Shown piece by piece: positions 15,906-36,729 of a stretch of 64,000 nt of DNA (its first letter is position 1; every line of letters begins with the position of its first letter). The notes beneath the pieces are model-generated. The model searched no databases and had not been told where the DNA came from. It saw only the letters and a list, made by a program, of their open reading frames with translations. The DNA is from Chryseobacterium jejuense (lineage in GTDB: Bacteria; Bacteroidota; Bacteroidia; Flavobacteriales; Weeksellaceae), in NCBI RefSeq assembly GCF_900100075.1, contig NZ_FNEG01000002.1, positions 310,001 through 374,000 of the forward strand, given 5' to 3'. The position numbers were made by a program, and so were the translations under genes.

Positions 15906-16403
15906 TTATCTTCCAAAGTCATCCTGCACTCTTACGATATCATCTTCATCTGAAGGATTGGAAGCATCGGTATGCTGCCATATTTCAGCTACGATTCCCC
16001 AACCTGAAAGACCTATTAATCTGTGTCTTTCTCCCTGCTGAAGTTTTACCTGATCTTTTGGGCTGTATTCTGCTACTTCTCCTTCTTCATCTGTAGTACT
16101 CCTTTTGATTCCTACGGTTCCTTCTACTACCTGCCAGATCTCGGCTCTTCTGTGGTGATATTGCCAGCTTAGTCTTGCTTCTGGAGCTACAACAAGAATT
16201 TTCGGGCTTAACTTTCCTCCTATTCTTAGGTTTTCTACATCAATTCCATCAAAGTACTGGTTAGCAAAATCCTGTGCCTGCGCCTCATCAATCACAAAAA
16301 AACCTCCCCATGGTCTGGTTTCGTCTTTTGCAGCAATGGTAAACCCTTGGCTTTGTAGAGTCTGTTCAACTCTATCGAATATTTCTTTTTTTTCCGTGCT
16401 CAT
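15906..16403 (-). CDS. Cupin protein, phosphomannose-isomerase type II-like
   Basis: 165 aa single-domain cupin, cytoplasmic. Begins with ETRPWGGFFVID, a PWG block typical of type II mannose-6-phosphate isomerase / GDP-mannose pyrophosphorylase C-terminal cupins. Metal-site candidates: Gln81, His83, His84 and Glu88 in SWQYHHRRAEIWQVVEG, and His127 in QQGERHRLIG. Last gene of the minus-strand mannose PUL, 24 nt after a GH92 gene. Converting mannose-6-phosphate to fructose-6-phosphate would complete the pathway, but free-standing cupins of this type are often misnamed and activity is inferred from context. Confidence 0.75.
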   Translation of the reverse strand: MSTEKKEIFDRVEQTLQSQGFTIAAKDETRPWGGFFVIDEAQAQDFANQYFDGIDVENLRIGGKLSPKILVVAPEARLSWQYHHRRAEIWQVVEGTVGIKRSTTDEEGEVAEYSPKDQVKLQQGERHRLIGLSGWGIVAEIWQHTDASNPSDEDDIVRVQDDFGR

Positions 16404-16427
16404 ATATCTTGTTTCTCTTAATTAAAA

Positions 16428-18710
16428 TTATTGATCTGACTTTTCTTTTGACATTGAATAAGGGAAATCTTTTTCCTGTGATCCTCTGTCTGTATTTGGC
16501 TTACTATCCATTTTAAAATCCAGAACGGCTCCATTCATTAAATTTTTATGACTTAACCAGTTTTTGGAGTATGGCTGTCCATTTACATTCAATGATTTTA
16601 CATATAAATTTTCAGTACTGTTTTCTGCTGCCTTTACTTCAATTTTCTTGCCGTTTTCAAGATGAATGGTAGCTTCCTTAAACAATGGTGCCCCCAATAC
16701 ATACTGATCTGTTGCCGGTGTTACCGGATAAAAACCTAATGCTGAGAAAATATACCATGCAGAGGTTTGCCCATTATCTTCATCACCGCAATAGCCATCC
16801 GGAGTAGCGTGATATAGTTTATTCATCACCTCCCTTGCCCAATATTGGGTTTTATAAGGTGCTCCTGCATAATTATACAGATAGATCATATGCTGTATCG
16901 GCTGATTTCCGTGGGCATACTGCCCCATGTTCATAATCTGCATTTCTCTGATCTCATGGATCACTCCACCGTAATAACTGTCATCAAAAACCGGTGGTAA
17001 TGAAAATACTTCATCCAGTTTGGCTTCAAATTTCTTTTTACCGCCCATCAATTGAGCTAAGCCATCAATATCCTGGAAAACTGACCAGGTATAATGCCAG
17101 CTGTTCCCTTCTGTAAAGGCATCACCCCATTTGAAAGGATTGAAAGGTTTCTGGAAATTACCGTCTTTATTTTTACCGCGCATCAATCCTGTTTCCTTAT
17201 CGAACAGATTTTTGTAATTATACGCTCTTTTTTTGTAAATATCAATTTCTGAAGCAGGTTTTCCTAATGCTTTTCCTAATTGATAGATGGAAAAGTCATC
17301 ATAAGCGTATTCTAATGTTCTGGCTGCATTCTCATTAATTTTTACATCGTAAGGAACGTAGCCTAATTCATTATAATATTTTACGCCAGCACGTCCGACT
17401 GCTTTTATAGGACCTTCGTTATTGGCACCATGTTTTACAGCCTGCCAAAGGGTTTCTACATCATATCCGCGAAGACCTTTGATATAAGCGTCTGCTACTA
17501 CAGAAGCGGAATTATTTCCAATCATAATATCGGAATATCCAGGGCTGCTCCATTCTGGTAAGAATCCTCCTTCTTTGTAAGCATTGGCTAATCCTTCCTG
17601 CATTTCGACATTGATACTTGGATATACCAGGTTCAGGAAAGGATACAAGGCACGGAAAGTGTCCCAGAAACCTGTTCCGGCAAACATTTTTCCGTCTGCA
17701 ATTTTTCCGTTGTATGGGCTCCAGTGTTTTATCTTATTCTGAGCATCAATTTCGTATAATTTCTGTGGAAAGAATAATGTTCTGTACAGTGAAGAATAAA
17801 AGGTTCTCATCTGCTGATCTGTTCCTCCTTTTACTTCTATTTTCCCTAAGGTCTTATTCCAGATATTTTTAGCATCGGTTTTTACCTGTTCAAAATTTTT
17901 GTTTGCGATTTCTCTTTTAAGATTGATTTCAGCCTGTTCAAAACTGATAAATGAAGAGGCTACTTTTGCATAGACTGTTTCTTTATCTTTCAGTTTAAAA
18001 CCTACGATTGCTCCGGTATGATCGCTGGTAATTTCAAGCTTATCATTAATCAGTTTATCATCTTTCCAGGTTTTTGTAAGCTCAAAGTCTTTATCAAACT
18101 GAACTACAAAATAGTTTTTAAAATTGTCATATTTCCCGGTAGAATATCTGGTGGTATAGCCCAGAATTTTTCTTTCTTTAGGCAATATTTTGATGTATGA
18201 ACCTTTATTCAGGGCATCAACCACTACATAAGCACTATCTGTTTTCGGAAAATCGAATTTGAAAAAAGAGGCTCTTTCTGTAGGGGTAAATTCAGTAGTT
18301 ACATTGATATCTGCTAAATAAACACTGTAGAAATAGGGGGTGGTAACCTCAGCTTTATGGCTGAACCAGCTCGCTCTGTCATCTTCTTTAAATTTCAACT
18401 TCCCCACTCCCGGCATAATGGAAAATGCGCCATAATCATTCATCCAGGGAGATGGCTGATGGGTTTGTTTGAATCCTTTTATTTTATCTGCATCGTAGGA
18501 ATAGGCCCATCCGTCACCCATTTTTCCGGTTTGTGCCGTCCAAATATTCATTCCCCATGGAAGTCCGACTGCCGGATAGGTGTTTCCGTTGGATAGTGAG
18601 GGTTTGGATTGGGTTCCCATCAATGGGTTTACATAGTCTACAGGAGATACATTCTGACCAAAAACCACGGCCTGTAATAAAAGAAAGCAAGTAGAAAAAA
18701 TAGACTTCAT
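16428..18710 (-). CDS. GH92 alpha-mannosidase family protein, Gln at catalytic-acid position
   Basis: 760 aa, signal peptide MKSIFSTCFLLLQAVVFGQ, periplasmic. GH92 enzymes are calcium-dependent exo-alpha-mannosidases. Family blocks seen: VNPLMGTQSKPSLSNGNTYP near residue 27, TGFWDTFRALYPFLNL, LPEWSSPGYSDIMIGNNSAS, and near the C-terminus YCGDEDNGQTSAWYIFSALG with the candidate base Asp residues. The block normally reading GN/DEP (acid Glu) is here HGNQP, with Gln603 coded by a CAG at 16902-16904 (minus strand). As I recall, GH92 enzymes that remove mannosyl-phosphate caps have Gln there, since a phosphate leaving group needs no acid. So it may cleave Man-1-phospho-6-Man, or another linkage, rather than plain alpha-mannosides. 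Gap of 22 nt to the ROK gene. Confidence 0.88.
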   Translation of the reverse strand: MKSIFSTCFLLLQAVVFGQNVSPVDYVNPLMGTQSKPSLSNGNTYPAVGLPWGMNIWTAQTGKMGDGWAYSYDADKIKGFKQTHQPSPWMNDYGAFSIMPGVGKLKFKEDDRASWFSHKAEVTTPYFYSVYLADINVTTEFTPTERASFFKFDFPKTDSAYVVVDALNKGSYIKILPKERKILGYTTRYSTGKYDNFKNYFVVQFDKDFELTKTWKDDKLINDKLEITSDHTGAIVGFKLKDKETVYAKVASSFISFEQAEINLKREIANKNFEQVKTDAKNIWNKTLGKIEVKGGTDQQMRTFYSSLYRTLFFPQKLYEIDAQNKIKHWSPYNGKIADGKMFAGTGFWDTFRALYPFLNLVYPSINVEMQEGLANAYKEGGFLPEWSSPGYSDIMIGNNSASVVADAYIKGLRGYDVETLWQAVKHGANNEGPIKAVGRAGVKYYNELGYVPYDVKINENAARTLEYAYDDFSIYQLGKALGKPASEIDIYKKRAYNYKNLFDKETGLMRGKNKDGNFQKPFNPFKWGDAFTEGNSWHYTWSVFQDIDGLAQLMGGKKKFEAKLDEVFSLPPVFDDSYYGGVIHEIREMQIMNMGQYAHGNQPIQHMIYLYNYAGAPYKTQYWAREVMNKLYHATPDGYCGDEDNGQTSAWYIFSALGFYPVTPATDQYVLGAPLFKEATIHLENGKKIEVKAAENSTENLYVKSLNVNGQPYSKNWLSHKNLMNGAVLDFKMDSKPNTDRGSQEKDFPYSMSKEKSDQ

Positions 18711-18732
18711 TGTATCGTTTCGTTTTGTTAAT

Positions 18733-19596
18733 TTATATAAGCTTTTTTAAGGCATAGCTGGCAGCTCCCAGAATGGCTGCATCTTCAAAAATGGCAGAGA
18801 TTTTAACCTGCAAGTTAATATTATTCTCTGTTAGATTCTGAATAAATCTTTGCTCAAAATGAGGATAAGCTTTTGCTATATTTCCTCCTATAACTAAAAC
18901 TTCCGGTTTGTAATGATCTACGTACTTCACCACAAATTCAGAGAAAGTATCTGCATATTCATCGAATATCTGTTTCTGTATTTCCAGAGGTTTATCCAAT
19001 AGGTCTTTGGTGCCTGAGATCTGTTCCCCTGTAAGTTCTTCATACCGCTTAACAAACCAGCGTGTGGCCAGATAATCTTCAAAGATAGATTCTTTAAAAG
19101 GTGAATCCCAAAGGTCTTCATCTGTAGCCAACTCTCCGTTATAAAATGTGGTTCCTAATCCTGTTCCGAGAGTGACTCCAAAAATCTTTCGAAAGCCCTG
19201 CACACATCCTCCGAATACTTCACCTTCCATAAAGGCTGCCGCATCATTAACAAAGTGAATCTGCTTTGTAGAAATGGACAATCTTTTAGCTAGTTCTTCT
19301 TTGATGTTGACATGAAGGATATCAATAAACTTCCCTTGCTCCATCAGTGATATTCCGTTTTCATAATCGAAAGGTCCTGGCATGGCAATTCCAATTAAAA
19401 GATCTGTTTTCACCAGATTATGGGCTCCTTTCTCTATGGCTGAAGTCCAGGTGGAGAAAATAGTTTCTCTGTCATCAAAGGAATTAACATGTTCTCTTAT
19501 GTACGTTGAAGTGAGAATTTCACGTTTTTCCGGATCTACCTGTGCGAGTGTAATGTGTGATCCTCCAATATCGATTCCTAATATATTCTGCATCAT
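18733..19596 (-). CDS. ROK-family sugar kinase
   Basis: About 287 aa (ATG 19596 or 19593, MMQNILGIDIGG), cytoplasmic. Actin-like ATPase fold: phosphate-1 loop GIDIGGSHITLAQ, GIAMPGPFDYENG, substrate-site HFVNDAAAFMEGE, GVTLGTGLGTTFYNG, and adenosine motif LVIGGNIAKAY. It lacks the CxCGxxGC zinc motif of classical ROK kinases and repressors, and has no N-terminal helix-turn-helix, so it is a kinase and not a regulator. In this PUL it would phosphorylate GlcNAc and/or mannose from the N-glycan core; the substrate cannot be told from sequence alone. Confidence 0.82.
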   Translation of the reverse strand: MMQNILGIDIGGSHITLAQVDPEKREILTSTYIREHVNSFDDRETIFSTWTSAIEKGAHNLVKTDLLIGIAMPGPFDYENGISLMEQGKFIDILHVNIKEELAKRLSISTKQIHFVNDAAAFMEGEVFGGCVQGFRKIFGVTLGTGLGTTFYNGELATDEDLWDSPFKESIFEDYLATRWFVKRYEELTGEQISGTKDLLDKPLEIQKQIFDEYADTFSEFVVKYVDHYKPEVLVIGGNIAKAYPHFEQRFIQNLTENNINLQVKISAIFEDAAILGAASYALKKLI

Positions 19597-19675
19597 TTTA
19601 TAATTTAAATTCAAGCTGTTCTATTGTATTGAAAAACAGACAAACAAGAAGATAATACTTGTCTGCCTGCTTTAC

Positions 19676-19706
19676 AATATGTTATCTGTTTTTCAGATAA
19701 CATATT
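19676..19706 (-). promoter_or_regulatory. Strong intergenic hairpin inside the PUL
   Basis: Perfect 13-bp stem AATATGTTATCTG / CAGATAACATATT with a TTTTT loop, between the stop of the first endoglycosidase gene and the ROK gene. No T run on the minus strand after it, so it is more likely an RNA stabiliser or processing site than a terminator. A second imperfect stem (CAGACAA / TTGTCTG) lies next to it near 19637-19665. Confidence 0.4.
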
Positions 19707-19719
19707 CATTCACTGAGTT

Positions 19720-22125
19720 TTATTTCACAATGATTTTACCTGATGATACTCCTTTATTTTTTGAAGATGTGATTTTGTAAATATAAGTACCTGTAGCCAA
19801 ATCCTGTGTATTTACGGTGTTATTATTTTGATTAATATTCTGTCTTTTCAAGAGTTTTCCTGAAATATCGTAAAAAGAAACCTCGCTGGAATTATCGGTG
19901 ACCGTAAAGTGAATATCACTTCCTCTTTTTACAGGATTTGGATACACTGAATTGTTGTCTTTTACATTTTCAACATCTCTTACAGATAATGAAGCGTTGC
20001 AAGGAACTTCCGTTTTCCAACTGGTATTGGTCATATTGACTAAAGTTGCAAAATGGGTATTGGTTGTAGCATCCAAAGCTCCTGTCCCACTTCCTTCATC
20101 CATCTTCCAGTTCGCCTCTAATCCTTGTGAATTGGCTGCCACATTACAGCTATTATCAAGAATCTCCTGAGCTGATAATGCTCTTTTCCATACTCTGAAT
20201 TCATCCAAAGAACCGTTTAACGCTCTGGAATTATCATAATTTCTCGCTAAATACATAATACCGTTTGCTGTAAAATTACCTGTAACGGGTGTACTTGTAT
20301 CCAGGGTTCCGTTAACATACAGCTTCATTGCTGTTCCGTCATAGGTTGCTGCCACGTGATACCATGTATTGGTATTGAATATTGTATTGGTATTAATTTT
20401 CACTTGAGAGGAACCGAAACTCAGGATAAACTGAAGTTTGTTATTGGCCAGGTTACCATCCCCGAACCTAAGCATTGCAGAGTTATTGTCTCCTACTTCA
20501 ATCCCAAGCACTGATGAAATATTAGGAAAGGCGGTTTTAAATGCATTTACTTTTACCCAACCTTCAATGGTTACTGCATTTCCGCTCAGGTTAAACTGTC
20601 CGGCATTCAGATAATTTGTACTTCCATTAAAAGAAAGTGACCTCGGGCCAGGACTTACAACCGGAGCAAAACCACTATTGAATGCTCCTTCTGCTGAATA
20701 AGTACTTACCGTTCCTCCATTACATGCTGCATGTACTTTCCATACATAACTTGTATTAGGGGAAAGATTTTGCAGTGAATAATTATTGGTGCTAATATTC
20801 TGAACTTCAGTCCATGCAGTAGCTGCTGTTGTTTTGTACTGTAGGGTGTAAGAAGACGCTGTTCCTGCATCCCACGACAATTGAGCAGAATTACCCAGGT
20901 AGCTTCCTGACACCAATCCTGAAGGTGTTGCACATCCGTTTCCTGAATTGAATCTTGGAGCAAAAAGATAGGTACTTGTTAAGGTTGAAGAGCAGTTAGA
21001 CTGTATTCTCCAATCATAATCTGTGTTCATCGTTAAATTATTGATCACCACATTGCTGCCGGAATAGTTGCTGGCAACATTAGTCCATGTTGTTGAACTG
21101 GCTGGTTTATAATCAATATTATAGGTTTGAGAGCCATTAGATACCCAGTTTAATTTGGCAGAGGTTCCTGTTACATTGGTTACGTCTAATCCTAACGGTG
21201 GATCACAGGCTTGTCCCTGGCTCCATGAATAGAGCTGTCCGCTTAATTGGGTATTTTCATTATAAAGAATATTGGAACCCGTACTCAGATAGTTGGCTAC
21301 ATCTGTTCCTGCTAAATCGTACCACATGAAAACACCATATCCGTCATTTTTGGTACTGGTTGCTGACGAGGCAACAACAGATGCTGGAGTAGACTGGGGA
21401 TTTGTATTTTGTATCCAGATTGCCGCCGGAGAAAGTTTTGTTTTATCAAGGGGCGGAACATTTGGAGCAACGTAAGTACCATACATGGCATTCCAGCTGT
21501 AATTGATATAGTTTCCTGCTGAGTCTCCATTATAACTTTGTCTTGAAGTAGCCGGGCCATAATAATAGAAAGTAATCAGTTTATCAGGCATTGCAGCTTT
21601 CAGTTCCTGTAGTAACATTACAAAAGAGCTGTTATTGGGCTGTCCTGTCCCGTTGTTGCCATATCCTGCATATTCATCATCCAGGTCTACACCATCCAAA
21701 CCATAAGTGTATACCGTATGAGCAACCTGTAGAGCAAAGTCTTTGGCTGCTTCACGATTAGGAAAATTGGAGATTCCAGCTCCCTGATGGTTTCCTAAAA
21801 GATCCAACAATACTTTAATCCCTTTTTGCTGTAAAGGCTTTACATAGGTATTTACGTCATTTAGTACTTTGGTAACATTATTATTACTTGAGATATAGGC
21901 TCTGCTTTTAGAAACATCGTAATTAATATTGGCTGCAAAGATAATGGCCACATCAAAAAGCTGTCTGTTGGTAGTCTGCAAAGTATAAGAACCAGCATTC
22001 AGCATGTTGTTGTTATTGACTTCCACGTAGCAGACCCCCAAAGGATTAAGCTGCTGTGCTTTCATTTGAGGGGCTGCCTGAAACATCAAGGCCATCAAGG
22101 GAATCAGAAAAGCGTTTTTTTTCAT
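19720..22125 (-). CDS. Endo H-like endo-beta-N-acetylglucosaminidase (GH18) with FN3, LamG and T9SS domains
   Basis: 801 aa from Met 22125; the upstream 16 residues are not signal-like. Signal peptide to about residue 23. GH18 catalytic domain to about 310 with GLDGVDLDDEYAGYGNNGT: Asp149 and Glu151 match the catalytic pair of Endo H, and QPNNSSFVMLLQELKAAMPD and LSPAAIWI also follow Endo H closely. Then two fibronectin type III domains (about 322-410 and 412-500), a LamG/concanavalin-like domain (about 510-700, EGWVKVN, NTWYHVAATYDG) and a C-terminal T9SS sorting domain (YPNPVKRG to KIIVK). Expected to be exported to the cell surface or medium and to cut between the two core GlcNAc of high-mannose N-glycans (EC 3.2.1.96). 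Adjacent paralogue has one FN3 domain fewer. Confidence 0.92.
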   Translation of the reverse strand: MKKNAFLIPLMALMFQAAPQMKAQQLNPLGVCYVEVNNNNMLNAGSYTLQTTNRQLFDVAIIFAANINYDVSKSRAYISSNNNVTKVLNDVNTYVKPLQQKGIKVLLDLLGNHQGAGISNFPNREAAKDFALQVAHTVYTYGLDGVDLDDEYAGYGNNGTGQPNNSSFVMLLQELKAAMPDKLITFYYYGPATSRQSYNGDSAGNYINYSWNAMYGTYVAPNVPPLDKTKLSPAAIWIQNTNPQSTPASVVASSATSTKNDGYGVFMWYDLAGTDVANYLSTGSNILYNENTQLSGQLYSWSQGQACDPPLGLDVTNVTGTSAKLNWVSNGSQTYNIDYKPASSTTWTNVASNYSGSNVVINNLTMNTDYDWRIQSNCSSTLTSTYLFAPRFNSGNGCATPSGLVSGSYLGNSAQLSWDAGTASSYTLQYKTTAATAWTEVQNISTNNYSLQNLSPNTSYVWKVHAACNGGTVSTYSAEGAFNSGFAPVVSPGPRSLSFNGSTNYLNAGQFNLSGNAVTIEGWVKVNAFKTAFPNISSVLGIEVGDNNSAMLRFGDGNLANNKLQFILSFGSSQVKINTNTIFNTNTWYHVAATYDGTAMKLYVNGTLDTSTPVTGNFTANGIMYLARNYDNSRALNGSLDEFRVWKRALSAQEILDNSCNVAANSQGLEANWKMDEGSGTGALDATTNTHFATLVNMTNTSWKTEVPCNASLSVRDVENVKDNNSVYPNPVKRGSDIHFTVTDNSSEVSFYDISGKLLKRQNINQNNNTVNTQDLATGTYIYKITSSKNKGVSSGKIIVK

Positions 22126-22149
22126 AGATATTAATTTTATTAGAATAGG

Positions 22150-22175
22150 AAAAGCCACTGGGCCTGAGCCCAATG
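22150..22175 (-). terminator. Attenuator-like hairpin between the two endoglycosidase genes
   Basis: On the minus strand CATTGGGC / GCCCAGTG (one G-U) with a 4-nt loop, followed by GCTTTTCC. Lies between two same-strand genes, so probably partial termination or 3'-end protection. Confidence 0.45.
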
Positions 22176-22185
22176 ACTGATTTTA

Positions 22186-24342
22186 TTATTTTATTATTAA
22201 TTTTTCGGTTTGTTTTTTACCTCCATTTTGAGATTCAAACTGAAGGATGTAGTTTCCTGTTGAAAGGTCTGATGATTCATAATGATTATCACCTGCATTC
22301 AACGATTTTGTCCCTACAACTCTTCCGTTAAAATCATAAATGGTCAATTTCCCTTTATTGTATTCATCAGGAACAGAGACTGTGAATGAAGAAGATTTAC
22401 TAACAGGATTCGGATATAATTTAATCTGAGTCTTAGTCTGAACTTTTTCTGAATTTATTCCTCTCTGGGTGGCCATCGTTTTTGATAATTTTGAACTTCC
22501 CGTTGCACATGGCAAATCTGTTCCCCAATTGGAAGCATCCACTCCTGTTAAGCTTAGACCAACACCATTTCCTGAGCTATCCTGAACGGTAGAACCACTT
22601 CCTTCATTGAATTTCCAATAAGCAGCAAGAGAAGTAGCTGGAACAGAGACATCGCACATGTTCTGACTTATTTCCGTCTGAGTTAATGCCTTTTTCCAAA
22701 CTCTAACCTCATCAATCTTACCATTGAAATTCCGGGAAGTATTATATAAATATCCTACATTAAATGCTCCATTAGAACTTACATTTCCGGTTTGAGCTTT
22801 GCTTGCGTCTAATACACCGTTGATATAAAGTTTCATAGAACTTCCATCATAAGTAGCAGCCACATGATACCATGTATTGGCACTCAAAGCTGTAGTGGAT
22901 GCCAGTTTTTGCTGTACATTATTGATGCTTACTACAAACTGAAGTTTATTATTGGCAAGACCAGCATCACCCAATCTTAATAATGCTGAATTAGTATCTC
23001 CTACTTCTGTTCCCATAATGGATGAAATGTATGGAGAAGCTGATTTGAAGGATGAAGGTTTGATCCAGCCTTCAAAAGATAATGCTGAGCCACTTAAATT
23101 CATATTTCCGGCTGCTCCAGATTCAGTGCTTCCATCCAGAGAAAGGGCATAAGAACCTGTAGGCATTGTTCCTCCTGATCCGCTGTTGAATCTTGGAGCG
23201 AACATATAAGTACTTTTTACACTGCAGTTTGTCCTGATTCTCCAATCGTATTCAGTATTAACAGTTAATCCTGAAATGGTTGCTGAAGTAGCATTAACAG
23301 CCGTAGCCACATTTGTCCAAGTTATTGAAGAAGCAGGTTTATAATCAATATCGTAAGTATTGGTACCTACGGCAGACCAGTTCAATTTCGCGCTTGTTCC
23401 CGTAAGATTGCTGGTGTATAATCCGATTGGTGCATCACAATTGGTTCCCTGTGTCCATGATTGTAGAGTACCGCTTAGCACCGTTGCTTCGCCATACAAT
23501 GTCTGAGTACCTGCTGTAAGTTGTGATGTCTGATTAGTTCCTTTAAGATCATACCAAAGATATAATCCATAGCCTCCGTTTTTCGTTTGAGTGGCCAAGC
23601 TTGTTGTTGTAGAATTGGACGTATTTCCCAACCAGACTGCTGCCGGAGAAATTTGAGCTTTAGTCAATGGAGGAACATTAGGAGCAGAGAATGTTCCGTA
23701 CATCGCATTCCAGCTGTAGTTGATATTATCTCCTACTCGGGCTCCGTTCCAGGAAAGTCTTGAAGCAGCATCTCCATAATAATAGAATGAGATGATTTTA
23801 TCCGGAAGTAATGCTCTTAATTCCTGAACTAGCATTACGAAGGAACTATCGTTAGGCTGCCCTGTTCCGTTATTTCCATATCCTGAATATTCATCATCAA
23901 AATCAATTCCATCAAGACCGTAAGTATTTACTGTATTGGCTAACTGTAATGCAAAATCTTTCGCTGCCTCACGGGTAGGGAAATTACAGATCCCCGCACC
24001 CTGGTGGTTTCCCAGAATAGTTAACACCACTTTCATTCCTTTTTGCTGCAGTGGCTTTATGTAGGTATCTGCGTTGGTAAGAACCTTAGTTACATTGTTG
24101 TTAGAATACAAATAGGCTCTTCCACGGCTGGTATCATAGTTAATATTAGCCGCAAAGATATTCACCACATTGAATAGATAGCTATTCGATGTTTGCAGTT
24201 TATACGCTCCTGCATTCAGGATGTTGTTGTTGTTCACTTCTACATAGCATATTCCTTTAGGATTAAGCTGCTGTGCGTTAAGGAAAGCACCAGACTGAAG
24301 TGCCATAGCCATCAGTGCAGTAAGGATTGATTTTTTTTTCAT
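22186..24342 (-). CDS. Endo H-like endo-beta-N-acetylglucosaminidase (GH18), second copy
   Basis: 718 aa. Signal peptide MKKKSILTALMAMALQSGAF. GH18 domain with GLDGIDFDDEYSGYGNNGT (Asp149, Glu151) and QPNDSSFVMLVQELRALLPD, even closer to Endo H than its neighbour. One FN3 domain (about 318-400), a LamG domain (about 405-590, EGWIKPS, NTWYHVAATYDG, KIDEVRVWKKAL) and a T9SS sorting domain (LYPNPVSKSSSF to EKLIIK). Function as for the neighbour: releasing high-mannose or hybrid N-glycans from glycoproteins outside the cell. The duplicated pair differs in FN3 number and loop residues around the active site, which suggests different glycan or protein targets. Sits between GH125 and the first copy. 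Confidence 0.92.
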   Translation of the reverse strand: MKKKSILTALMAMALQSGAFLNAQQLNPKGICYVEVNNNNILNAGAYKLQTSNSYLFNVVNIFAANINYDTSRGRAYLYSNNNVTKVLTNADTYIKPLQQKGMKVVLTILGNHQGAGICNFPTREAAKDFALQLANTVNTYGLDGIDFDDEYSGYGNNGTGQPNDSSFVMLVQELRALLPDKIISFYYYGDAASRLSWNGARVGDNINYSWNAMYGTFSAPNVPPLTKAQISPAAVWLGNTSNSTTTSLATQTKNGGYGLYLWYDLKGTNQTSQLTAGTQTLYGEATVLSGTLQSWTQGTNCDAPIGLYTSNLTGTSAKLNWSAVGTNTYDIDYKPASSITWTNVATAVNATSATISGLTVNTEYDWRIRTNCSVKSTYMFAPRFNSGSGGTMPTGSYALSLDGSTESGAAGNMNLSGSALSFEGWIKPSSFKSASPYISSIMGTEVGDTNSALLRLGDAGLANNKLQFVVSINNVQQKLASTTALSANTWYHVAATYDGSSMKLYINGVLDASKAQTGNVSSNGAFNVGYLYNTSRNFNGKIDEVRVWKKALTQTEISQNMCDVSVPATSLAAYWKFNEGSGSTVQDSSGNGVGLSLTGVDASNWGTDLPCATGSSKLSKTMATQRGINSEKVQTKTQIKLYPNPVSKSSSFTVSVPDEYNKGKLTIYDFNGRVVGTKSLNAGDNHYESSDLSTGNYILQFESQNGGKKQTEKLIIK

Positions 24343-25879: not shown

Positions 25880-25912
25880 TGATACTTTTATTTCGTTTAT
25901 TTTTATTAGTCT

Positions 25913-29235: not shown

Positions 29236-29270
29236 AAAGTATTTTTACTTTTTTATTTAAAATTTGTTTA

Positions 29271-30569
29271 TTAATTGATTGGTTCTTCTTTCTGATTTTC
29301 TGAATACGGGAAAGGAACAAACAGGGTGACAAGAAATGCAGGAATTGTAGCAATCAGCACCCAGATAAAGAACATTTTATATCCAATCCAGTCACTAATC
29401 ATCCCACTGAACATTCCCGGAATCATTACTCCCAGATTCATAATTCCTGTGGCAAAGGCATAATGGGCTGTTTTATGTTTTCCGGGAGCAATCTGTTGCA
29501 TCATATAAAGCATTAGCCCCACAAAACCGAATCCATAGCCGAAGTATTCTACCACTACAGCAACTCCTACGGGTAAAAGATCAATTGGCTGATAATAAGC
29601 TAATAATGCATATACCACAAATGGAATATTGAATGCACAGCACAGCCATATTAAAGATTTTTTTAATCCGCGGGCTGAAATAAAATATCCAGCTAAAACA
29701 GATCCCAGAATAAATGCTGCCGAACCATATGTTCCATAGATAAGCCCGATATCTGAAGTTGATAATCCTAGTCCTCCTGAAGTTCTTGGTGCTTTAAAAA
29801 ATAAAGGTGCAATTTTGATGGCAAAACCTTCTGCAAAGCGGTACAGGATAATGAACAGGATACACCACAGTATCTTCTTTTTGGTAAAGAAAGAGGTAAT
29901 GACTTCCAATAATTCTGCACGGACATTTCCTGCAGTCTTTTCATCTTTCTGAACCTCTTTATCTTCTTTAGGCAAAATCAGATAGTGATAAATGGCTAAT
30001 GCAAAGAATAATAATGCATAGATTACCATGATAATCATCCAGGCATGGGTAACACCTTTTGTTTTTTCTAAAACTCCGGCCACATACACTAAAGCTCCAC
30101 TGCTGATAATCTTAGCAAGGTTATAAAATGCGCCCTGCCAGCCAATGTATTTAGCCTGTTCCTTATTGCTAAGAAAACCAATATAAGTTCCGTCTGCTAC
30201 TACATCATGGGTAGCTCCACAAAATGCAACTACGGCAAAAAGAGCAATACTGTATTTGAAAAAGTCATGCATAGGCAGACTTAATGCAACTAGAGCAAAC
30301 AGAATTCCTATGGCAAACTGGGTAGCAACAACAAAGAATTTTTTAGTTTTATAGATTTCCAGAAAAGGGCTCCAGAGTGGCTTTAACGTCCATGAAAACA
30401 TGACAAGAGCTGTCCAGAAAGTAATCTGTGAATCCGAAACGCCCATATCTTTATACATGATTCCTGAAACCGCATTAATGGTTACAAAGGGTACACCCAT
30501 TGCAAAATATAATGTGGATATCCAGAGAATTGGCTGAATCCGACGGGTTCCGGAGTTGTTTTTTCCCAT
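29271..30569 (-). CDS. MFS sugar transporter of the N-glycan PUL
   Basis: 432 aa with about 12 hydrophobic helices and a charged central loop near residues 200-215 (LPKEDKEVQKDEKT), typical of the major facilitator superfamily. Begins LWISTLYFAMGVPFVTINAVSG, like the AmpG-like carriers located beside GH130 genes in Bacteroidota. Likely imports Man-GlcNAc from the periplasm so that the neighbouring cytoplasmic phosphorylase can use it (inference from position). Ends 35 nt before GH130 and starts after a 155-nt structured gap behind SusD. Confidence 0.85.
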   Translation of the reverse strand: MGKNNSGTRRIQPILWISTLYFAMGVPFVTINAVSGIMYKDMGVSDSQITFWTALVMFSWTLKPLWSPFLEIYKTKKFFVVATQFAIGILFALVALSLPMHDFFKYSIALFAVVAFCGATHDVVADGTYIGFLSNKEQAKYIGWQGAFYNLAKIISSGALVYVAGVLEKTKGVTHAWMIIMVIYALLFFALAIYHYLILPKEDKEVQKDEKTAGNVRAELLEVITSFFTKKKILWCILFIILYRFAEGFAIKIAPLFFKAPRTSGGLGLSTSDIGLIYGTYGSAAFILGSVLAGYFISARGLKKSLIWLCCAFNIPFVVYALLAYYQPIDLLPVGVAVVVEYFGYGFGFVGLMLYMMQQIAPGKHKTAHYAFATGIMNLGVMIPGMFSGMISDWIGYKMFFIWVLIATIPAFLVTLFVPFPYSENQKEEPIN

Positions 30570-30596
30570 ATTTAAAAATAAAATTCAAAAAGAAAA

Positions 30597-30701
30597 AGAG
30601 AACATCTCAAGGTTCATTCCAGCTAAAAACGAAACTATAAATTTTTTGAAGGTCCTACGCCTACCTCCTGCCTGAATGATTATCCTTTATGAGATGTCTC
30701 T
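30597..30701 (-). promoter_or_regulatory. Structured RNA region between SusD and MFS genes
   Basis: Long-range stem AGAGAACATCTCA (30597-30609) / TGAGATGTCTCT (30690-30701, one-base bulge) encloses about 80 nt that holds a further possible small stem (GGT...ACC around 30652-30668). On the minus strand the closing arm is followed by a T-rich tract (TCTCTTTTTCTTTTTG), so it can act as a terminator/attenuator separating susCD from the enzyme genes. Confidence 0.45.
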
Positions 30702-30724
30702 GTATTGTGTGTTTTGCCTGTTGA

Positions 30725-32362
30725 TTATTTTTTATCCCACCAAAGCTTGGTTCCTCCGTTATCTGGGCCACCTAGTTGCTGAACAGCTTGTGCGTAATTA
30801 AAAGTGGAATTTTTTGTATCATTCGTGAACGGAATTCTTCTAATCATCTGATCTGTACTGATTAATCCGCCACTATCATTTTTTCTGACTTTGAATAAAA
30901 CCGGATATCCTGTTCTTCTTTGTTCAGCCCATGCTTCAGGACCATCCGGATAAAGAGCCAGCCATTTTTGAGTGATGATTCTTTCAAGTTTCTTTTCGTT
31001 AGAATCGCTGTTGTTCCAAGCAATTGTAATGGTACTTAATTGAGAATCTCCGGAAAGGATGTTATTGGCAGCATTTTTAGGATCAATATAAGGAGCTTCT
31101 GTAGAAACAGCGTCCGCCAAATAAGCCGTTACATCAGAACTTTTACCCCATTCCCCAAAAGATTGACTGACACCCGCTTGATAATTAGCTTGTGCATCAC
31201 CTGCCCCAGAATACCCTCTCAAAGCTGCTTCAGCTTTTAAAAACCAGGTTTCAGCAGCAGTAAATAATTTGAATTTTCCATCAGTACCAGAGAAATAATC
31301 TCCACTAGCAGATCTTGCAGCAGGTTGGGAATAACCACCATAGGTTGGTTTCCCATTAATTAAATCAATTCCTTGACGTATTCCTATATATTGTGGTTTA
31401 CCACCTACAATTGTTGCCGGATCTGTTGCCGGATTAGCGTACGCAGCAAGCCTGGGATCTTTAAAGCCATTCATATAAGCCATTATTGGAGCACCTATAT
31501 AACAGTCACCCCACGAATAGATAATAAAACTTAATTCATGCTGTCCAACACTTATCAATGCATTGTCTGCATTATCAGAGATTAATCCTGCGGACGAAGC
31601 AAAGACTTCCTCTGCATATTTTTTTGATTTTGCCGGATCAGCATAGCTCATACGCAAAGCAAATCTCAGTTTAAGAGAGTTGGCTAATTTTGCCCACTTG
31701 GCGATGTCTCCACCATAAATCAAATCTGCTTTTTTCACAACAGTTTTATCTTCTACATTCTGAGTTGCGGGAGTATTTTGTACTTTTTGCAAATCAGAAA
31801 TAGCGCTAGTAAGGTCATTAATAAAATTGTTGTAAGCGTCCTGCTGAGAATCAAAATCTGTAATCCCATTTGCATTAGGAGTATCATATTTACTATATAC
31901 TACAGGCCCATGGCGATCTGAAACTCTTGCCGCTGTAAGAATTTTTAATATTTTTTTAACTGCAAAAGTTGCTGTGAAATCTATTCCGGGATAGTTGTAT
32001 TTTGCCGCGTCATCTATGACAATAGAATTATTAAAAACATCACGCTGTCTTGCAATGATTCTATTGTTCCAGCCATCCATCATTAAATAAGTAAGATTAT
32101 TCGTTCCTCCATTAAACTGTGATGCTGTACTAAACATTCCACTAAACATATCTGCGTTGAGATTGGTCGCTAATTGGTAATCTGACTGAAAACCTCTTTG
32201 GATGTCTTTCATAGGATTTACAATGGCTGTAAAATCTGCATAAAAATTTTCCGGACCTCCAACTTTCTGCTGATTAAACTCTTCAAAGTCTCCGATACAA
32301 CTGGAGGCAGAAAAAAGCACGGCTACTCCAAGTATATAAGTTTTAATATTAATTATTTTCAT
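30725..32362 (-). CDS. SusD/RagB-family glycan-binding lipoprotein
   Basis: 545 aa, lipoprotein signal ending SASSCIGDFEEFN, so anchored to the outer membrane and surface exposed. Family features: NLNADMFSGMF early, tetratricopeptide-like helices (KWAKLANSLKLRFALRMSYA), WFLKAEAALRGY, ERIITQKWLALYPDGPEAWA and RTGYPVLFKV near the end, matching the SusD-like_2 type. It caps the SusC channel and binds the glycan. Only 15 nt separate it from susC, so the two are co-translated. The ligand is inferred from the PUL: high-mannose N-glycan. Confidence 0.92.
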   Translation of the reverse strand: MKIINIKTYILGVAVLFSASSCIGDFEEFNQQKVGGPENFYADFTAIVNPMKDIQRGFQSDYQLATNLNADMFSGMFSTASQFNGGTNNLTYLMMDGWNNRIIARQRDVFNNSIVIDDAAKYNYPGIDFTATFAVKKILKILTAARVSDRHGPVVYSKYDTPNANGITDFDSQQDAYNNFINDLTSAISDLQKVQNTPATQNVEDKTVVKKADLIYGGDIAKWAKLANSLKLRFALRMSYADPAKSKKYAEEVFASSAGLISDNADNALISVGQHELSFIIYSWGDCYIGAPIMAYMNGFKDPRLAAYANPATDPATIVGGKPQYIGIRQGIDLINGKPTYGGYSQPAARSASGDYFSGTDGKFKLFTAAETWFLKAEAALRGYSGAGDAQANYQAGVSQSFGEWGKSSDVTAYLADAVSTEAPYIDPKNAANNILSGDSQLSTITIAWNNSDSNEKKLERIITQKWLALYPDGPEAWAEQRRTGYPVLFKVRKNDSGGLISTDQMIRRIPFTNDTKNSTFNYAQAVQQLGGPDNGGTKLWWDKK

Positions 32363-32377
32363 TGTTGTATTATATAT

Positions 32378-35338
32378 TTAGAAGTTAGCTTTTAATGATA
32401 ATCCGATAGATCTTGTAATAGGTATACCAAAAGAATCTACTCCTACACCACCGGGTGTGTTTCCTGAAACCTGTTCAGGATCAAATGGTGCTTTTTTATA
32501 AAAGAAAAATAGATTTGTTCCCACTATACTTACCGTTGCATTCCTTAGGTAGCTAGATTTGATATCAAAAGTATATCCTATAGATGCCTGACGCAGCCTT
32601 ACAGTGGTCGCACTATAGATATAGGCTTCATCAATTCCTGCTCCTTCCTGATTTGCTCCTACCGCTTTATAATAAGCTTGTGCATCAGTTAACCCAGTAT
32701 AGGCAGCGCCTGCATTTGGTGTTCCTGGTGCATATACCGCATTCGGAATAGAGACTCCCCCAGCATCTCTGGCAGAAGCACTGTTCTGACTTACCCCAAG
32801 CATATCATTTGCTTTTTCTGTAAGAGATAGGACTTGACCGCCAAATTTTCCATCAATCAGAAAAGAAATTCCCAGTTTTCCAATATTAAAAGAGTTATTA
32901 AATCCTAACATAAATTTAGGATTAGGATTCCCTAAATAACCAATTTGTTTATCTGCCATAGGTTTTCCATCAGCATCTACTAAAATTCGCCCCTGATCAT
33001 CTCTCAAAAATTTAACCCCATAGATGTCTCCGAAAGATCCGCCCAACTTAAGTTTTGTATAAACACCACCACCCGTAAGTGCAAGAAGCTGATTTTCAAG
33101 ACCACTAAGCCTAGAAGGGAATAATTCTACAATTTTATTTTTGTTTGCAGAACCATTTAAATTAGCCGTCCAGCCAAATTTTTCCGAATCAAATATTTTA
33201 TAGGATAGAGAAGCTTCAAAACCTGTATTTTGTATTTTTCCGGCATTTATATAATAGGAACCGGATGGTAAACCTCCTAAGTTAGAGTCAATATTAAGTG
33301 CTAAAAGCTGGTTGGAAGCATTGGAATTGTAATAGGTGATATCAAAACTTAAACGGTTTTTAAACAATCTTAGTTCAGTTCCAGCTTCAAAAGTCTTATT
33401 AAGTTCTGGTTTTACAAATAATTCCTTGTAAGCAGGATTTGTTACAAGTGAATATTTAGGTTTTACAATTTGACCAGCATCAACATTGTATCCATAAACA
33501 CTATTATATGGAATCATAGCCGTTGTTAAATTTGCGGGCAGTCCTAATCCTACTGTAGCATAGGACCCTCTTATTTTCCAAAAGCTAATGGTTTCAGGAA
33601 GTTTAAAGATTGAAGATAATACAGCGTTAGCACCCACAGATTCATAATCATATCCACTGGTTCCTGTATAAGCCAAAGTGGAATCCCAGTCATTTCTAAA
33701 AGTCATATCCACAAAGAACATATTCTTATACCCCAAGGATGCACTTGCAAAAATCGACTGTATTTGTTTTTTGGTACTGTAGCTTATATTATGAAAACCA
33801 TCTCCTACTCCTCTATCTACATTCCACTGCAGATTACTGATGGTAAATAAATTTGGGATCGCTAAATAAGCATTATCAATTTCAGTTACTGTATTTCTTG
33901 AGGTATTGATACTTCCACCCACCGTAAAATCTAATGAAATATCTTCGCTTAATTTTGGACTCCCTACTAATAAAACATCACCATAAGTAGAAGAGTTTTC
34001 GTATTTGTTTTGAAGAAATCTTCCATTTTCTCCATTGCTCGTTATCAGAATTGGATCCGAATAGGCCGAAACACCTCTTTGGCTATCTGTAATATTCCAG
34101 CTATAGTTCCCTCTTACTCTCGCTGATAGCCACGGATTGATTTGATAGGCCAATGATAAAGCACTATATGTATTTTTGTTATTAACAGCAACTTTATTTC
34201 TGTTTAATACCCAATAAGGGTTTTGTGTTGCAGGATTACCATTAAATTTTCCATCTGCTCCTATAGCCCACCAATTCTGAGCAGGTAATAATCTTTTTTT
34301 GTCTATAAAAGAATAGTTACTATTATTATATTGATCAAAATCTACTCCTCTTGGCAACCAGTATAAACTCACTAACGGTGAAAAAGAAATACCAGGAGTC
34401 TGTCTGTTGATACTATTTTGTATAGAACCAATAAAATTAGCATCCAATGTTAATTTATCATTCAGGTATTTACTGGAATTTCTAAAGGAGACATTGTACT
34501 GATCGAAATACGAAGAAGGAACAATCCCTTTATTAGTGGTATTTCCTATGGAGAAATAATTCGTTGATTTTTCGGTACCTGATTGGAAAGAAAGGCTATT
34601 AACCCATGTTGTACCAGTTTGTAAAAAATCTTTCAGATGATCCTTAGAAGCTCCTTTCGCACCCCAGCTTTCATTGGATAGACCAGGTGTTTGTCCAGAG
34701 ACTGAGGGGTCATAAGACAGATAACTATGCTGTAATTTAGGAAGACTATATGCCTGATCTACTGTAAAACTAGTATTGTAACTTATAGAGCTTTTACCTA
34801 CTTTTCCTTTTTTAGTGGTAATCAGAATAACACCATTTCCCCCAATAGAGCCATAAAGTGCGGAAGCGGAAGCTCCTTTTAAGAAGTTGATGCTTTCAAT
34901 ATCATCTGGATTGATGGAACTTAAAACATCTCCCGCATCTGGCATTGTAGAATATTGGCTGGCCTCAGCAGACTTCCCAACACTGTTAATAATGGGAATA
35001 CCATCTATTACATATAGAGGCTGACTGCTACTTGCTGATTTATTTCCTCTCATTAAAACCCTAACCGAGCTTCCTACACCGTTAGTTCTATTGATCTGTA
35101 CATTGGAAACTTTTCCACTGATGGAGTTTAAAAAATTGGGCGTTTTTACTTCCGTCAGCTCATCTCCGCCAATCTGCTGGCTGGAATAAGTAAGAGCGCG
35201 GGCCTGCCTTTTAATCCCCAAAGAGGTGACTACGACCTCCTGAATATCGGTTGTCTTAGTAGTGTCGGCCGCTTTTTTTTCCTGTGCAGTGGCAGAAAGG
35301 GAAAAAACAAATAGAACCGGTATAACTGCTTTTCTCAT
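32378..35338 (-). CDS. SusC/RagA-family TonB-dependent outer membrane transporter
   Basis: 986 aa. Short signal peptide (MRKAVIPVLFVFSLSATAQ), then after only about 15 residues the TonB-box-like DIQEVVVTSLGIKRQ and the plug: SGKVSNVQINRTNGVGSSVR, PLYVIDGIPIINS, GASASALYGSIGGNGVILIT, all SusC signatures. Barrel follows to the terminal ...SIGLSLKANF. It lacks the carboxypeptidase-like N-terminal extension that most SusC proteins have; the length fits the short type. Imports the glycan released outside, powered by TonB. First gene of the PUL transcript; upstream gap of 512 nt. Confidence 0.93.
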   Translation of the reverse strand: MRKAVIPVLFVFSLSATAQEKKAADTTKTTDIQEVVVTSLGIKRQARALTYSSQQIGGDELTEVKTPNFLNSISGKVSNVQINRTNGVGSSVRVLMRGNKSASSSQPLYVIDGIPIINSVGKSAEASQYSTMPDAGDVLSSINPDDIESINFLKGASASALYGSIGGNGVILITTKKGKVGKSSISYNTSFTVDQAYSLPKLQHSYLSYDPSVSGQTPGLSNESWGAKGASKDHLKDFLQTGTTWVNSLSFQSGTEKSTNYFSIGNTTNKGIVPSSYFDQYNVSFRNSSKYLNDKLTLDANFIGSIQNSINRQTPGISFSPLVSLYWLPRGVDFDQYNNSNYSFIDKKRLLPAQNWWAIGADGKFNGNPATQNPYWVLNRNKVAVNNKNTYSALSLAYQINPWLSARVRGNYSWNITDSQRGVSAYSDPILITSNGENGRFLQNKYENSSTYGDVLLVGSPKLSEDISLDFTVGGSINTSRNTVTEIDNAYLAIPNLFTISNLQWNVDRGVGDGFHNISYSTKKQIQSIFASASLGYKNMFFVDMTFRNDWDSTLAYTGTSGYDYESVGANAVLSSIFKLPETISFWKIRGSYATVGLGLPANLTTAMIPYNSVYGYNVDAGQIVKPKYSLVTNPAYKELFVKPELNKTFEAGTELRLFKNRLSFDITYYNSNASNQLLALNIDSNLGGLPSGSYYINAGKIQNTGFEASLSYKIFDSEKFGWTANLNGSANKNKIVELFPSRLSGLENQLLALTGGGVYTKLKLGGSFGDIYGVKFLRDDQGRILVDADGKPMADKQIGYLGNPNPKFMLGFNNSFNIGKLGISFLIDGKFGGQVLSLTEKANDMLGVSQNSASARDAGGVSIPNAVYAPGTPNAGAAYTGLTDAQAYYKAVGANQEGAGIDEAYIYSATTVRLRQASIGYTFDIKSSYLRNATVSIVGTNLFFFYKKAPFDPEQVSGNTPGGVGVDSFGIPITRSIGLSLKANF

Positions 35339-35850
35339 AAGGTTTAGATTAGTTAGATTTAATTGAGAATCAATGACATTACTTCAGATTTTAATACCCA
35401 AAAGTTTATTGTTTTTTTAGCAACCTTTTGCAGTTTATGTATTAAATTATTTAAAGTTTTGTTAAGATTTAATTCACATTAACAAATCTAAATTTTGTGA
35501 ACAGTCTGATATAATACTATTTTATCATAAAACGATATTATTTTTTCAGCCGATTAATCAAACTATAAATAACAACCTGTTTATCAACAAATTAAAACAA
35601 AATCAAAACAATCAAAAAAAGGAGAATTATTTTATGTTTTTTTATTTTGAATAAGAAAAATACAATCTAGAAATTGACCGTATTTTGAAACAGAAAAGTG
35701 AACAATAATAGAGCTGAACATCGGTTTTAACATAGGGTCTCTTCACTCCACTTCTGAATTACGTTCGCAGGCCTTCCGTCTGTATTCAGAATGACAGAAG
35801 GATTTTATGAAAAACTTTCAAGCAGTAAAAAAGAAATATCTGAAAAGAAA
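35339..35850. other. 512-nt intergenic region upstream of susC
   Basis: Very AT-rich and without credible genes. On the minus strand a TAGATTTG box (35483-35490) fits the -7 consensus for the PUL promoter, with a leader of about 145 nt; no clear -33. Toward the AraC gene there is a GC-richer patch with inverted arms TTCTGAAT (35752-35759) and ATTCAGAA (35784-35791), which looks like a dispersed intergenic repeat. Confidence 0.45.
35483..35490 (-). promoter_or_regulatory. Candidate -7 box of the PUL promoter
   Basis: TAGATTTG on the minus strand, a match to TAnnTTTG, about 145 nt upstream of susC. No recognisable -33 at the usual distance, as expected if an activator (the AraC protein) is needed. 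Confidence 0.35.
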
Positions 35851-36729
35851 TTATTCAATCTTTTTTACCCCTTTAAATTGTTCTCTAAATTCGGTTGGAG
35901 TCGTCTTTTTGATAGATTTAAAGACTTTATTGAAATTAGCAATATTGTTAAAACCGGCTTCAAAAGCAATTTCAAAAACGGTAAGATTTTTTTCCATCAA
36001 CCAGCGGGCAGCATAACTTATTCGGATCTCATTAAGGTAATTGATAAACGTTGTTCCCGTTCTTTTTTTAATGAATCTGTTGAATGTCACATTACTCATA
36101 TTCACCAATGAAGCTACATTATCCAGGGTTATTTTATTCTCAAAATTCTTATGAACAAAATCATGGATAACCTTCATTTTATCATTATCATCAAAAGTTT
36201 CAGAATCAATGCTGTAGGAAGACAAAAGTATCTTATTTTCTGCAACCGCCAATTCATTAAGAATCTTCATAATTTCTATAAAAGATTCAAAGCTATTCAT
36301 CTTGGAAAGGTTGAGAAACGAATCTTTTAGTTTTTCAGCCGTTTCTGTAGAAAATAAAATGCCTTTAATTGAATCCTTAATCAGGTTATTAATAGGTTTC
36401 AGGATGTTTTTCTGCATCAGTGCCTGATTAAAAAAGTCCTGATTAAACTGTATGGTAATTTCGTGAGTCTTTTTGTATTTGCATTTATAATTTGCCCAAC
36501 AATGTGGCAAGTTGGGGCCAATCAACACTAATTCCAGATCTCCAATTTCACCTGTATGATCTCCAATCATCCTACGATATCCTTTACCTTTGTACACAAA
36601 GTTAATTTCAATCTCCGGGTGATAATGATAGGGAAAATCAAACGACTCTTTAATCCTGTCAAATACCAGAAAACTATCTTCGGGAGATAGTGGAGTTATT
36701 TCTCTAAGAATATTTTCTAGTCCGTTCAT
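35851..36729 (-). CDS. AraC-family transcriptional regulator of the PUL
   Basis: 292 aa. N-terminal cupin-like sensor (residues about 20-110: FPYHYHPEIEINFVYKGKG, LVLIGPNLPHCW) and C-terminal AraC double helix-turn-helix (about 190-288): ITLDNVASLVNMSNVTFNRF as the first and LTVFEIAFEAGFNNIANFNK as the second. Lies directly upstream of susC in the same direction; such cupin-AraC regulators are a known alternative to SusR and HTCS regulators of PULs. A soluble sensor implies the inducer is a cytoplasmic sugar, plausibly mannose or Man-GlcNAc (inference). Confidence 0.88.
   Translation of the reverse strand: MNGLENILREITPLSPEDSFLVFDRIKESFDFPYHYHPEIEINFVYKGKGYRRMIGDHTGEIGDLELVLIGPNLPHCWANYKCKYKKTHEITIQFNQDFFNQALMQKNILKPINNLIKDSIKGILFSTETAEKLKDSFLNLSKMNSFESFIEIMKILNELAVAENKILLSSYSIDSETFDDNDKMKVIHDFVHKNFENKITLDNVASLVNMSNVTFNRFIKKRTGTTFINYLNEIRISYAARWLMEKNLTVFEIAFEAGFNNIANFNKVFKSIKKTTPTEFREQFKGVKKIE

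Follow-up and report, generated by a model that had tools for sequence, protein, structure and literature searches.

Several described systems resemble the locus reported here, which lies at positions 15906 to 36729 of a 64,000-nucleotide stretch of Chryseobacterium jejuense DNA (contig NZ_FNEG01000002.1; the whole stretch is called the window below) and which, judged from its genes, is very likely a high-mannose N-glycan utilization locus with its own AraC-family activator. PUL72 of Bacteroides thetaiotaomicron, the polysaccharide utilization locus (PUL) of BT3987, is under extracytoplasmic function (ECF) sigma control, has a GH18 endoglycosidase at the cell surface and stops at Man-α1,6-Man-β1,4-GlcNAc (Man, mannose; GlcNAc, N-acetylglucosamine) (PMC11180146). 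The Gpd complex (PUL5) of Capnocytophaga canimorsus joins a SusC-like importer to an endo-β-N-acetylglucosaminidase acting on glycoproteins; its surface proteins are lipoproteins, come with a sialidase and act on IgG (PMC3128124). UhgbMP is described as a β-1,4-mannosyl-N-glycan phosphorylase with the catalytic residue Asp104 (PMC10619541). In the carrageenan locus of Zobellia, the AraC-family regulator cgrA acts positively; that cluster serves another substrate and is without a susCD-like pair (PMC5698469).

The C. jejuense locus shares with PUL72 a GH18 endoglycosidase, a SusCD pair and GH92 α-mannosidases. Where PUL72 has a BT3987-type GH18 and an ECF sigma factor, there are here two Endo H-type enzymes tagged for the type IX secretion system (T9SS) and an AraC regulator and, since GH125 and GH130 stand in the same locus, the glycan core could be taken further than is described for PUL72 (PMC11180146). 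The likeness to the Gpd complex lies in the SusC-like importer and the endo-β-N-acetylglucosaminidase; the differences are the T9SS tags and the mannosidases and phosphorylase within the locus, and no sialidase was found among its twelve genes. Both GH18 domains are like Streptomyces Endo H, but unlike that enzyme they are fused to fn3, LamG and T9SS domains and form two old paralogues. The GH130 protein is like the Man-GlcNAc phosphorylases UhgbMP, its best solved match, and BT1033, which is likened by description and not by sequence. A first-pass annotation of the window had held that the combination differs from known Bacteroides loci. With respect to the published account of PUL72, this stands, given the ECF sigma factor and the earlier stop; the AraC regulator, however, has a flavobacterial precedent in Zobellia cgrA, likewise within a gene cluster. 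No description of such a locus in Chryseobacterium was found in the open-access literature searched. The system is of a known kind, but in layout and enzyme types it looks like a variant not yet described.

Outside the gut, the locus is a compact candidate system for the use of high-mannose N-glycans. Endo H-type enzymes are useful tools in glycoprotein analysis, and the locus also offers a candidate Man-GlcNAc phosphorylase, a small pair of putative phosphomannose isomerase (PMI) and mannokinase, and a precise operator prediction for AraC.

Gene content and proposed pathway

Twelve open reading frames (ORFs) were confirmed, all on the minus strand: eleven genes at 15906-35338 and araC at 35851-36729. 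The window belongs to a 5.17-Mb genome, labelled G000. ORFs and profile searches bore out the gene number, ends, strand and families given by the first-pass annotation. The features are listed below with the evidence for each.

15906-16403, minus: cupin, likely phosphomannose isomerase (mannose 6-phosphate to fructose 6-phosphate); PF01050 40.9 bits, cut-off 23.6
16428-18710, minus: GH92b α-mannosidase, periplasmic by predicted signal peptide; PF07971 588 bits, nearest solved 2wvx
18733-19614, minus: ROK sugar kinase, probably mannokinase; PF00480 56.7 bits, gene neighborhoods
19720-22173, minus: GH18a, Endo H-type endo-β-N-acetylglucosaminidase with fn3, LamG and T9SS C-terminal domain; NF045482, TIGR04183
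22186-24342, minus: GH18b, Endo H-type endo-β-N-acetylglucosaminidase with fn3, LamG and T9SS C-terminal domain; NF045482, TIGR04183
24452-25879, minus: GH125 exo-α-1,6-mannosidase with twin-arginine translocation (Tat) signal; PF06824 574 bits, TIGR01409
25913-28141, minus: GH92a α-mannosidase, periplasmic by predicted signal peptide; PF07971 528 bits, nearest 6f8z
28264-29235, minus: GH130 phosphorylase, likely for Man-β1,4-GlcNAc, without signal peptide; GH130 244 bits, nearest UhgbMP
29271-30569, minus: major facilitator superfamily (MFS) inner-membrane transporter, AmpG-related, likely importer of Man-GlcNAc or mannose; PF07690
30725-32362, minus: SusD-like surface lipoprotein; PF12741 477 bits
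32378-35338, minus: SusC-like TonB-dependent importer; TIGR04056 488.8 bits, cut-off 368
35439-35547, minus: conserved block preceding susC, candidate operator and promoter; 84 of its 109 columns invariant across 23 loci
35535-35548, minus: candidate operator half-site 1, direct repeat; repeat search and alignment
35514-35527, minus: candidate operator half-site 2, 21 bp from half-site 1; repeat search and alignment
35483-35490, minus: TAGATTTG, matching the flavobacterial -7 box TAnnTTTG; sequence, consensus from PMC9723704
35851-36729, minus: AraC-family regulator with N-terminal cupin-like sensor; HTH_18 71.8 bits, AraC_binding 21.6, cut-off 21.1

Two proteins are probably shorter than their mechanical ORFs, GH18a with a start at the internal ATG 22125 and the ROK protein with one at about 19593. 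As is usual in a PUL, susC and susD are adjacent and accompanied by carbohydrate enzymes, and by gene content the regulator is co-localized, with araC beside susC. The export signals that had been annotated were recovered by profile. A T9SS type A sorting domain ends both GH18 proteins (TIGR04183, 48.3 bits in GH18a and 44.8 in GH18b, cut-off 23), and GH125 has a predicted Tat signal (TIGR01409, 20.5 bits, cut-off 16.7) whose twin arginines are both invariant in the 7/7 aligned GH125 proteins; a TatC gene is present in the genome. The signal peptides of GH92a and GH92b and the SusD lipobox were read from the sequence only.

The predicted activities, bond specificities and localizations, with the predicted induction and DNA binding, would join into one route. 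Outside the cell, the two T9SS-exported GH18 enzymes would cleave the glycans of glycoproteins between their two core GlcNAc residues, and SusCD would import the Man(5-9)GlcNAc released. In the periplasm, the two GH92 enzymes and the Tat-exported GH125 would strip α-1,2/1,3- and α-1,6-linked mannose, leaving Man-β1,4-GlcNAc, which the MFS protein would import, together with or in place of mannose. GH130 would phosphorolyze Man-GlcNAc to mannose 1-phosphate and GlcNAc, the ROK kinase would phosphorylate free mannose, and the cupin would turn mannose 6-phosphate into fructose 6-phosphate. AraC, binding the direct repeats at 35514-35548 beside the TAnnTTTG promoter, would switch on susC and the genes behind it in response to an inducer sugar. 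The N-glycan reading, already put forward in the first-pass annotation, appears well supported because of the Endo H-type GH18 pair, a GH130 nearest to UhgbMP and the absence of an endo-mannanase among the twelve genes.

The earlier description of the locus as complete and covering every step goes too far. No phosphomannomutase was found among the twelve genes (the rest of the genome was not searched for one), and no glucosamine 6-phosphate (GlcN-6-P) deaminase was found in the genome. Also, a single MFS protein must do the import unless a second importer exists, and the protein-linked GlcNAc would be left behind.

The Endo H-type GH18 pair

Both GH18 proteins score above the cut-off of 300 for the Endo H equivalog NF045482 (372.6 bits for GH18a, 396.5 for GH18b), and both carry an fn3 domain, a LamG/ConA-like domain and the T9SS sorting domain in addition. 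Matches to Streptomyces Endo H (about 1e-91 for GH18b, 7e-80 for GH18a) are better by a wide margin than those to Endo F1 (1.8e-38 and 1e-39) or 3poh (3.9e-33 and 3.2e-35), and assignment to the Endo F1/BT3987 type was rejected. The catalytic motif DGxDxDDE is intact in GH18a and GH18b, so the idea that one of them is a dead paralogue found no support. The two are predicted to be GH18 endoglycosidases of the high-mannose type.

In a sample of 395 genomes from the class, 73 had some match and only five exceeded the Endo H cut-off: G000 and four genomes from a single other family. In those four (L195-L198, in genomes G399, G267, G380 and G316), the Endo H-type GH18 is 57-63% identical to GH18b, and it adjoins SusCD matches in L197 only.

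In a tree of 51 GH18 domains, with a bootstrap that had not converged and a root placed for display only, GH18a (22 rows) and GH18b (21 rows) each fall on one side of a branch, with supports of 98/99 and 96/96, respectively. The separation of the pair is, therefore, older than that of these species. Both copies were present in 22 of 25 loci; G003 had GH18b only, and L070 and L072 had GH18a only. One relative, G014 (L029 and L030, joined and turned), has at 10597-11574 an extra EndoS-type GH18 between GH130 and GH92a (PF23916, 277 bits), which is probably a lipoprotein.

Mannosidases, phosphorylase and transporter

The bond specificities predicted for GH92, GH125 and the other enzymes come from family knowledge. 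GH92b is nearest to 2wvx among solved proteins (1106 bits; 815 for the next distinct protein, 2wvy), GH92a is nearest to 6f8z (580 bits), and GH125 is nearest to 3p2c, 3on6 and BT3781. A third GH92 of the same genome lies outside the locus (L194, about 8.7 kb, G000:C20:29713-31110). The genome also holds an N-glycanase-like match (PF09112, 44.7 bits, cut-off 22.4).

The nearest solved relative of the GH130 protein was UhgbMP (5.8e-150, 502 bits), followed by 5ayd (453 bits), Lin0857 (157), 7fip (134) and 5ay9 (88). By these scores, it belongs closer to UhgbMP than to the β-1,2-mannoside or mannosylglucose phosphorylases. Asp104 of UhgbMP is probably the Asp in a YDPR stretch common to the GH130 of the locus, which is likely a UhgbMP-like Man-β1,4-GlcNAc phosphorylase. 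A role as a β-1,2-mannoside or other mannobiose phosphorylase was considered and rejected (NF052550, 166 vs 450; NF050092, 200 vs 550), since UhgbMP fits far better.

The only solved matches of the MFS protein at 0.01 were two entries for AmpG, a muropeptide transporter. It scored 141 bits with TIGR00901, below the cut-off of 350, and is therefore named an AmpG relative and not AmpG proper. Family searches found no endo-mannanase (GH76, GH99), β-mannanase or 2-epimerase among the twelve genes.

The cytoplasmic end of the proposed pathway

The cupin has the PF01050 score expected of a type II PMI and is the only match above the cut-off in its genome; three others reached 15-16 bits. No type I PMI was matched in the genome by a search that was positive in 7/14 controls. 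Within the two families searched, the cupin is likely the sole PMI candidate of the genome. With TIGR01479, for the bifunctional mannose-1-phosphate guanylyltransferase-PMI, it scored 36 bits vs 373 and over its C-terminal part only, so the name is limited to PMI-like cupin. Its predicted structure (pLDDT 88.9) is nearest to archaeal phosphomannose isomerases, with Z scores of 13.4 (rmsd 2.5, 111 aligned) and 12.9 (rmsd 2.1, 103 aligned). Other cupins follow at 12.6 (the unrelated CENP-C) and below, lyxose isomerases included, and since PMI and CENP-C scores lie within 1, the fold alone leaves the function unsettled.

The fold search for the ROK protein returned GlcNAc, ManNAc and glucose kinases alike and did not separate the substrates. 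Because of the gene neighborhoods of its homologues, a mannokinase is preferred as the probable assignment. For the 16 other genomes with a homologue, the best copy in each was taken with its 20-kb region. GH92 lay within 20 kb in nine of 14 regions (L291-L304), and a GH18 match in none. L302 has a GH130 match at 24%, L289 has SusCD without GH92 and, in L286 (G025), the ROK gene adjoins the cupin, with GH92b about 12 kb further on. Among the best 80 of 588 GH125 relatives, the Pedobacter loci L078, L094, L107, L109 and L110 have ROK together with GH125 and GH92. In the 395-genome sample, full-length ROK homologues (E < 1e-30) occurred in 17 genomes and full-length cupins (E < 1e-50) in 29. Both were present in 12. 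Independent occurrence would predict about 1.2, a figure that takes no account of the relatedness of the genomes. G008 and G330, the other same-genus genomes of that sample, were without a ROK match and had a weak cupin match (39 bits).

The sole PF01182 hit of the genome (L204, G000:C19) was rejected as a GlcN-6-P deaminase; it is a 6-phosphogluconolactonase (TIGR01198, 184 vs 124; nagB, 50 vs 237). In four relatives (G016, G004, G003 and G007), the ORFs read include a protein of 774 or 775 amino acids between GH125 and GH18b, and G021 has an insert of equal size. The G016 protein scored 185 bits with PRK02122, below the cut-off of 384, and matched solved deaminases at up to 6e-17; no Pfam match was found at 0.001. 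The protein (L041:11676-14000, minus strand; equivalents in G004, G003, G007 and L073) has a PHHDD motif, which we take to recall PIG-L deacetylases. It is possibly a fused GlcNAc 6-phosphate (GlcNAc-6-P) deacetylase-deaminase, and a deaminase-like gene in the loci of relatives fits GlcNAc as a product. A search of our own genome, run without a positive control, found no counterpart. In this species, GlcNAc may feed amino-sugar synthesis instead of glycolysis.

Distribution among genomes

Thirty-nine genomes, our own included, were compared, among them 24 of the same genus. Gene order in relatives, a comparison that the first-pass annotation had proposed, proved constant: the locus with araC was found in one order in 15 of the 24 same-genus genomes (our own and 14 others), with two genes missing in one. 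This was G003, which is without GH18a and ROK; its SusC matches come in two pieces and its MFS gene reads as two ORFs. GH125 was present in 21/39 genomes, our own included, and the six other GH125-bearing genomes (GH125 at 57-63%) were without the locus.

Named genomes were scanned through the best 80 of the 588 GH125 relatives, and the set was present in ten of these 80 loci, all from Chryseobacterium. Two of the ten, L070 and L072, have one GH18; the stretch of L073 does not reach the cupin, which is present in the same locus of G004. In the other 70, some of them on short contigs, the set was not seen. L071 is the locus of G011 and L073 that of G004, so the 25 loci comprise 23 distinct ones. 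Since order and content are kept in relatives, the locus is not a chance assembly. The nearest in content among the 70, L136 from a Sphingobacteriales metagenome-assembled genome, has SusD, two GH18 matches (42% to GH18b), GH92 and GH125 together, a partial and diverged counterpart.

The AraC regulator and the block upstream of susC

A regulator of its own had been claimed for the locus, and this was corroborated: araC stands beside susC in 25/25 loci (in the ten named loci, the stretch ends within araC and only its last part is seen), and an operator-like block is tied to the locus. Both AraC domains are conserved (0.914 for the N-terminal domain and 0.928 for the HTH, 15 sequences), which suggests one ligand for all. 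The block, at 35439-35547 between araC and susC, has 84/109 invariant columns over the 23 distinct loci vs 40/409 in the rest of the spacer, where about 120 of the 409 columns are an insertion private to the window. Mean pairwise identity was 0.929 in the block, vs 0.507 in the 120 columns upstream and 0.703 from block to ATG. Fourfold sites of AraC (15 sequences) and of GH130, GH125, GH92b and SusC (23 each) gave 0.39-0.56, and the nine other gaps of the locus 0.44-0.75.

The 24-mer at 35518-35541 has a single exact copy in every one of the 15 locus genomes and, with up to three mismatches, is absent from all 24 genomes without the locus; the named locus L069 has it with one change. Typical sites of AraC-family activators are repeats at 21 bp that abut the promoter. 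Here, two direct repeats of 14 bp are spaced at 21 bp, gap-free in 23/23 loci and with 10-13 of 14 letters alike, and a 12/14 repeat at 21 bp was reached in 2/2000 shuffles. Downstream of them, TAGATTTG at 35490-35483 fits TAnnTTTG, the -7 box reported for F. psychrophilum (PMC9723704). Direct repeats beside a promoter, kept together with the regulator, are what a dedicated operator would look like, with the spacing rule taken from general knowledge, and the block is likely the AraC operator. A sigma-70 scan, with a model unsuited to this phylum, gave 58 hits vs 62 expected by chance. In folding, the window's leader RNA does not stand out from shuffled sequences (z -1.25; 22/200 shuffles as good), no Rfam family reached threshold in the window, and an RNA element is, therefore, unsupported.

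Alternative explanations

Some of the results weigh against the reading as a dedicated N-glycan locus, and four other explanations draw on them or on further evidence. The solved GH130 relatives also include 5ayd, a β-1,4-mannooligosaccharide phosphorylase (3.8e-135), and the sequence therefore leaves room for mannooligosaccharides as substrate. Since 5ayd is next after UhgbMP, GH130 and MFS could serve β-mannan oligosaccharides and the rest N-glycans, in a mixed α/β-mannan locus. UhgbMP is nearer, however, and the twelve genes lack a β-mannanase and a 2-epimerase, which makes such a mixture very unlikely. A natural substrate of fungal (yeast-type) mannoprotein, with the Endo H pair cutting hypermannosylated N-glycan and a diet of fungal debris in place of animal or plant glycoprotein, would change the source and not the chemistry. 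The nearest relatives of GH125 point that way, as BT3781 reportedly has a role in yeast mannan use; Endo H accepts large mannans, and species names such as panacisoli and elymi among the named GH125 records suggest soil and plants. A fungal source is conceivable, although we lean against it: the twelve genes include no GH76 or GH99 endo-mannanase, and the Endo H pair and GH130 would act at the N-glycan core whatever its source. For the fate of GlcNAc, PF01182 and homologue searches of our own genome (NagA was not searched) found no GlcN-6-P deaminase, hence no route from GlcNAc-6-P to glycolysis, and the glycan may not be used in full.

This same absence counts against ROK as a GlcNAc kinase for the GlcNAc freed by GH130. 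That GlcNAc is a predicted product, that the fold search does not tell the kinases apart and that the locus of some relatives includes a deaminase-like gene speak for it. The homologues, however, often keep company with GH92 and never with GH18 in the regions compared and mostly share their genomes with the cupin, and we consider a GlcNAc kinase unlikely compared with a mannokinase, although the neighborhoods behind the latter come from related, non-independent genomes. The assignment of the block meets objections of its own. Three extra sites match the 24-mer with three mismatches, one each in G000, G003 and G009, where the reversed pattern gave 0 in 39 genomes. Those in G003 and G009 are inside unrelated genes and that in G000 is between two genes without evident glycan link; from these contexts, they were taken as chance and not as further operators. 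As 125/2000 shuffles match the repeat at any spacing of 15-32 bp, it stands out only at the 21-bp spacing set beforehand. The block could serve another regulator, or it may be a constitutive promoter or a leader RNA element. AraC binding is a prediction only, and the block extends past the TAnnTTTG box on the downstream side, although an activator needs no site there. On the other hand, the block is tied to the locus, lies between araC and susC and has its 21-bp repeats beside the promoter, and the folding and Rfam scans do not favor an RNA. A function other than AraC operator thus seems improbable.

Exchange of SusCD

SusCD has been exchanged between loci at least once, with one clear case. 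In L074 (C. shigense), GH130 is 100% identical (rounded) to that of G011, where SusC is 69% and SusD 64% identical; compared with the window, SusC is 91% and SusD 90% identical. Nucleotide identity flips in L074 (0.5-5.1 kb) early within susC and again at the susD end. G004 and G011 also differ in this way (GH130 99%, SusC 70%); for G004, the 16 loci compared include no close donor. We infer that exchange was repeated. We only tentatively suggest, and rather doubt, a cassette with one AraC and one operator in the genome, in which enzymes, regulator and operator stay fixed while recombination among Chryseobacterium species replaces the SusCD pair again and again; import specificity (or escape from binding by phage or toxin) would then evolve separately from catabolism. 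Through the exchange, selection on the import pair can be studied as a natural experiment.

Other features of the window

Between GH18a and ROK, the gap at 19675-19709 contains a long inverted repeat, AATATGTTATCTG and its complement, which is perhaps a break between two transcripts. On the plus strand, at 12889-15651, a TonB-dependent receptor has an N-terminal HMA (heavy-metal-associated) domain and, by eye, a second HMA-like copy; it perhaps serves metal uptake.

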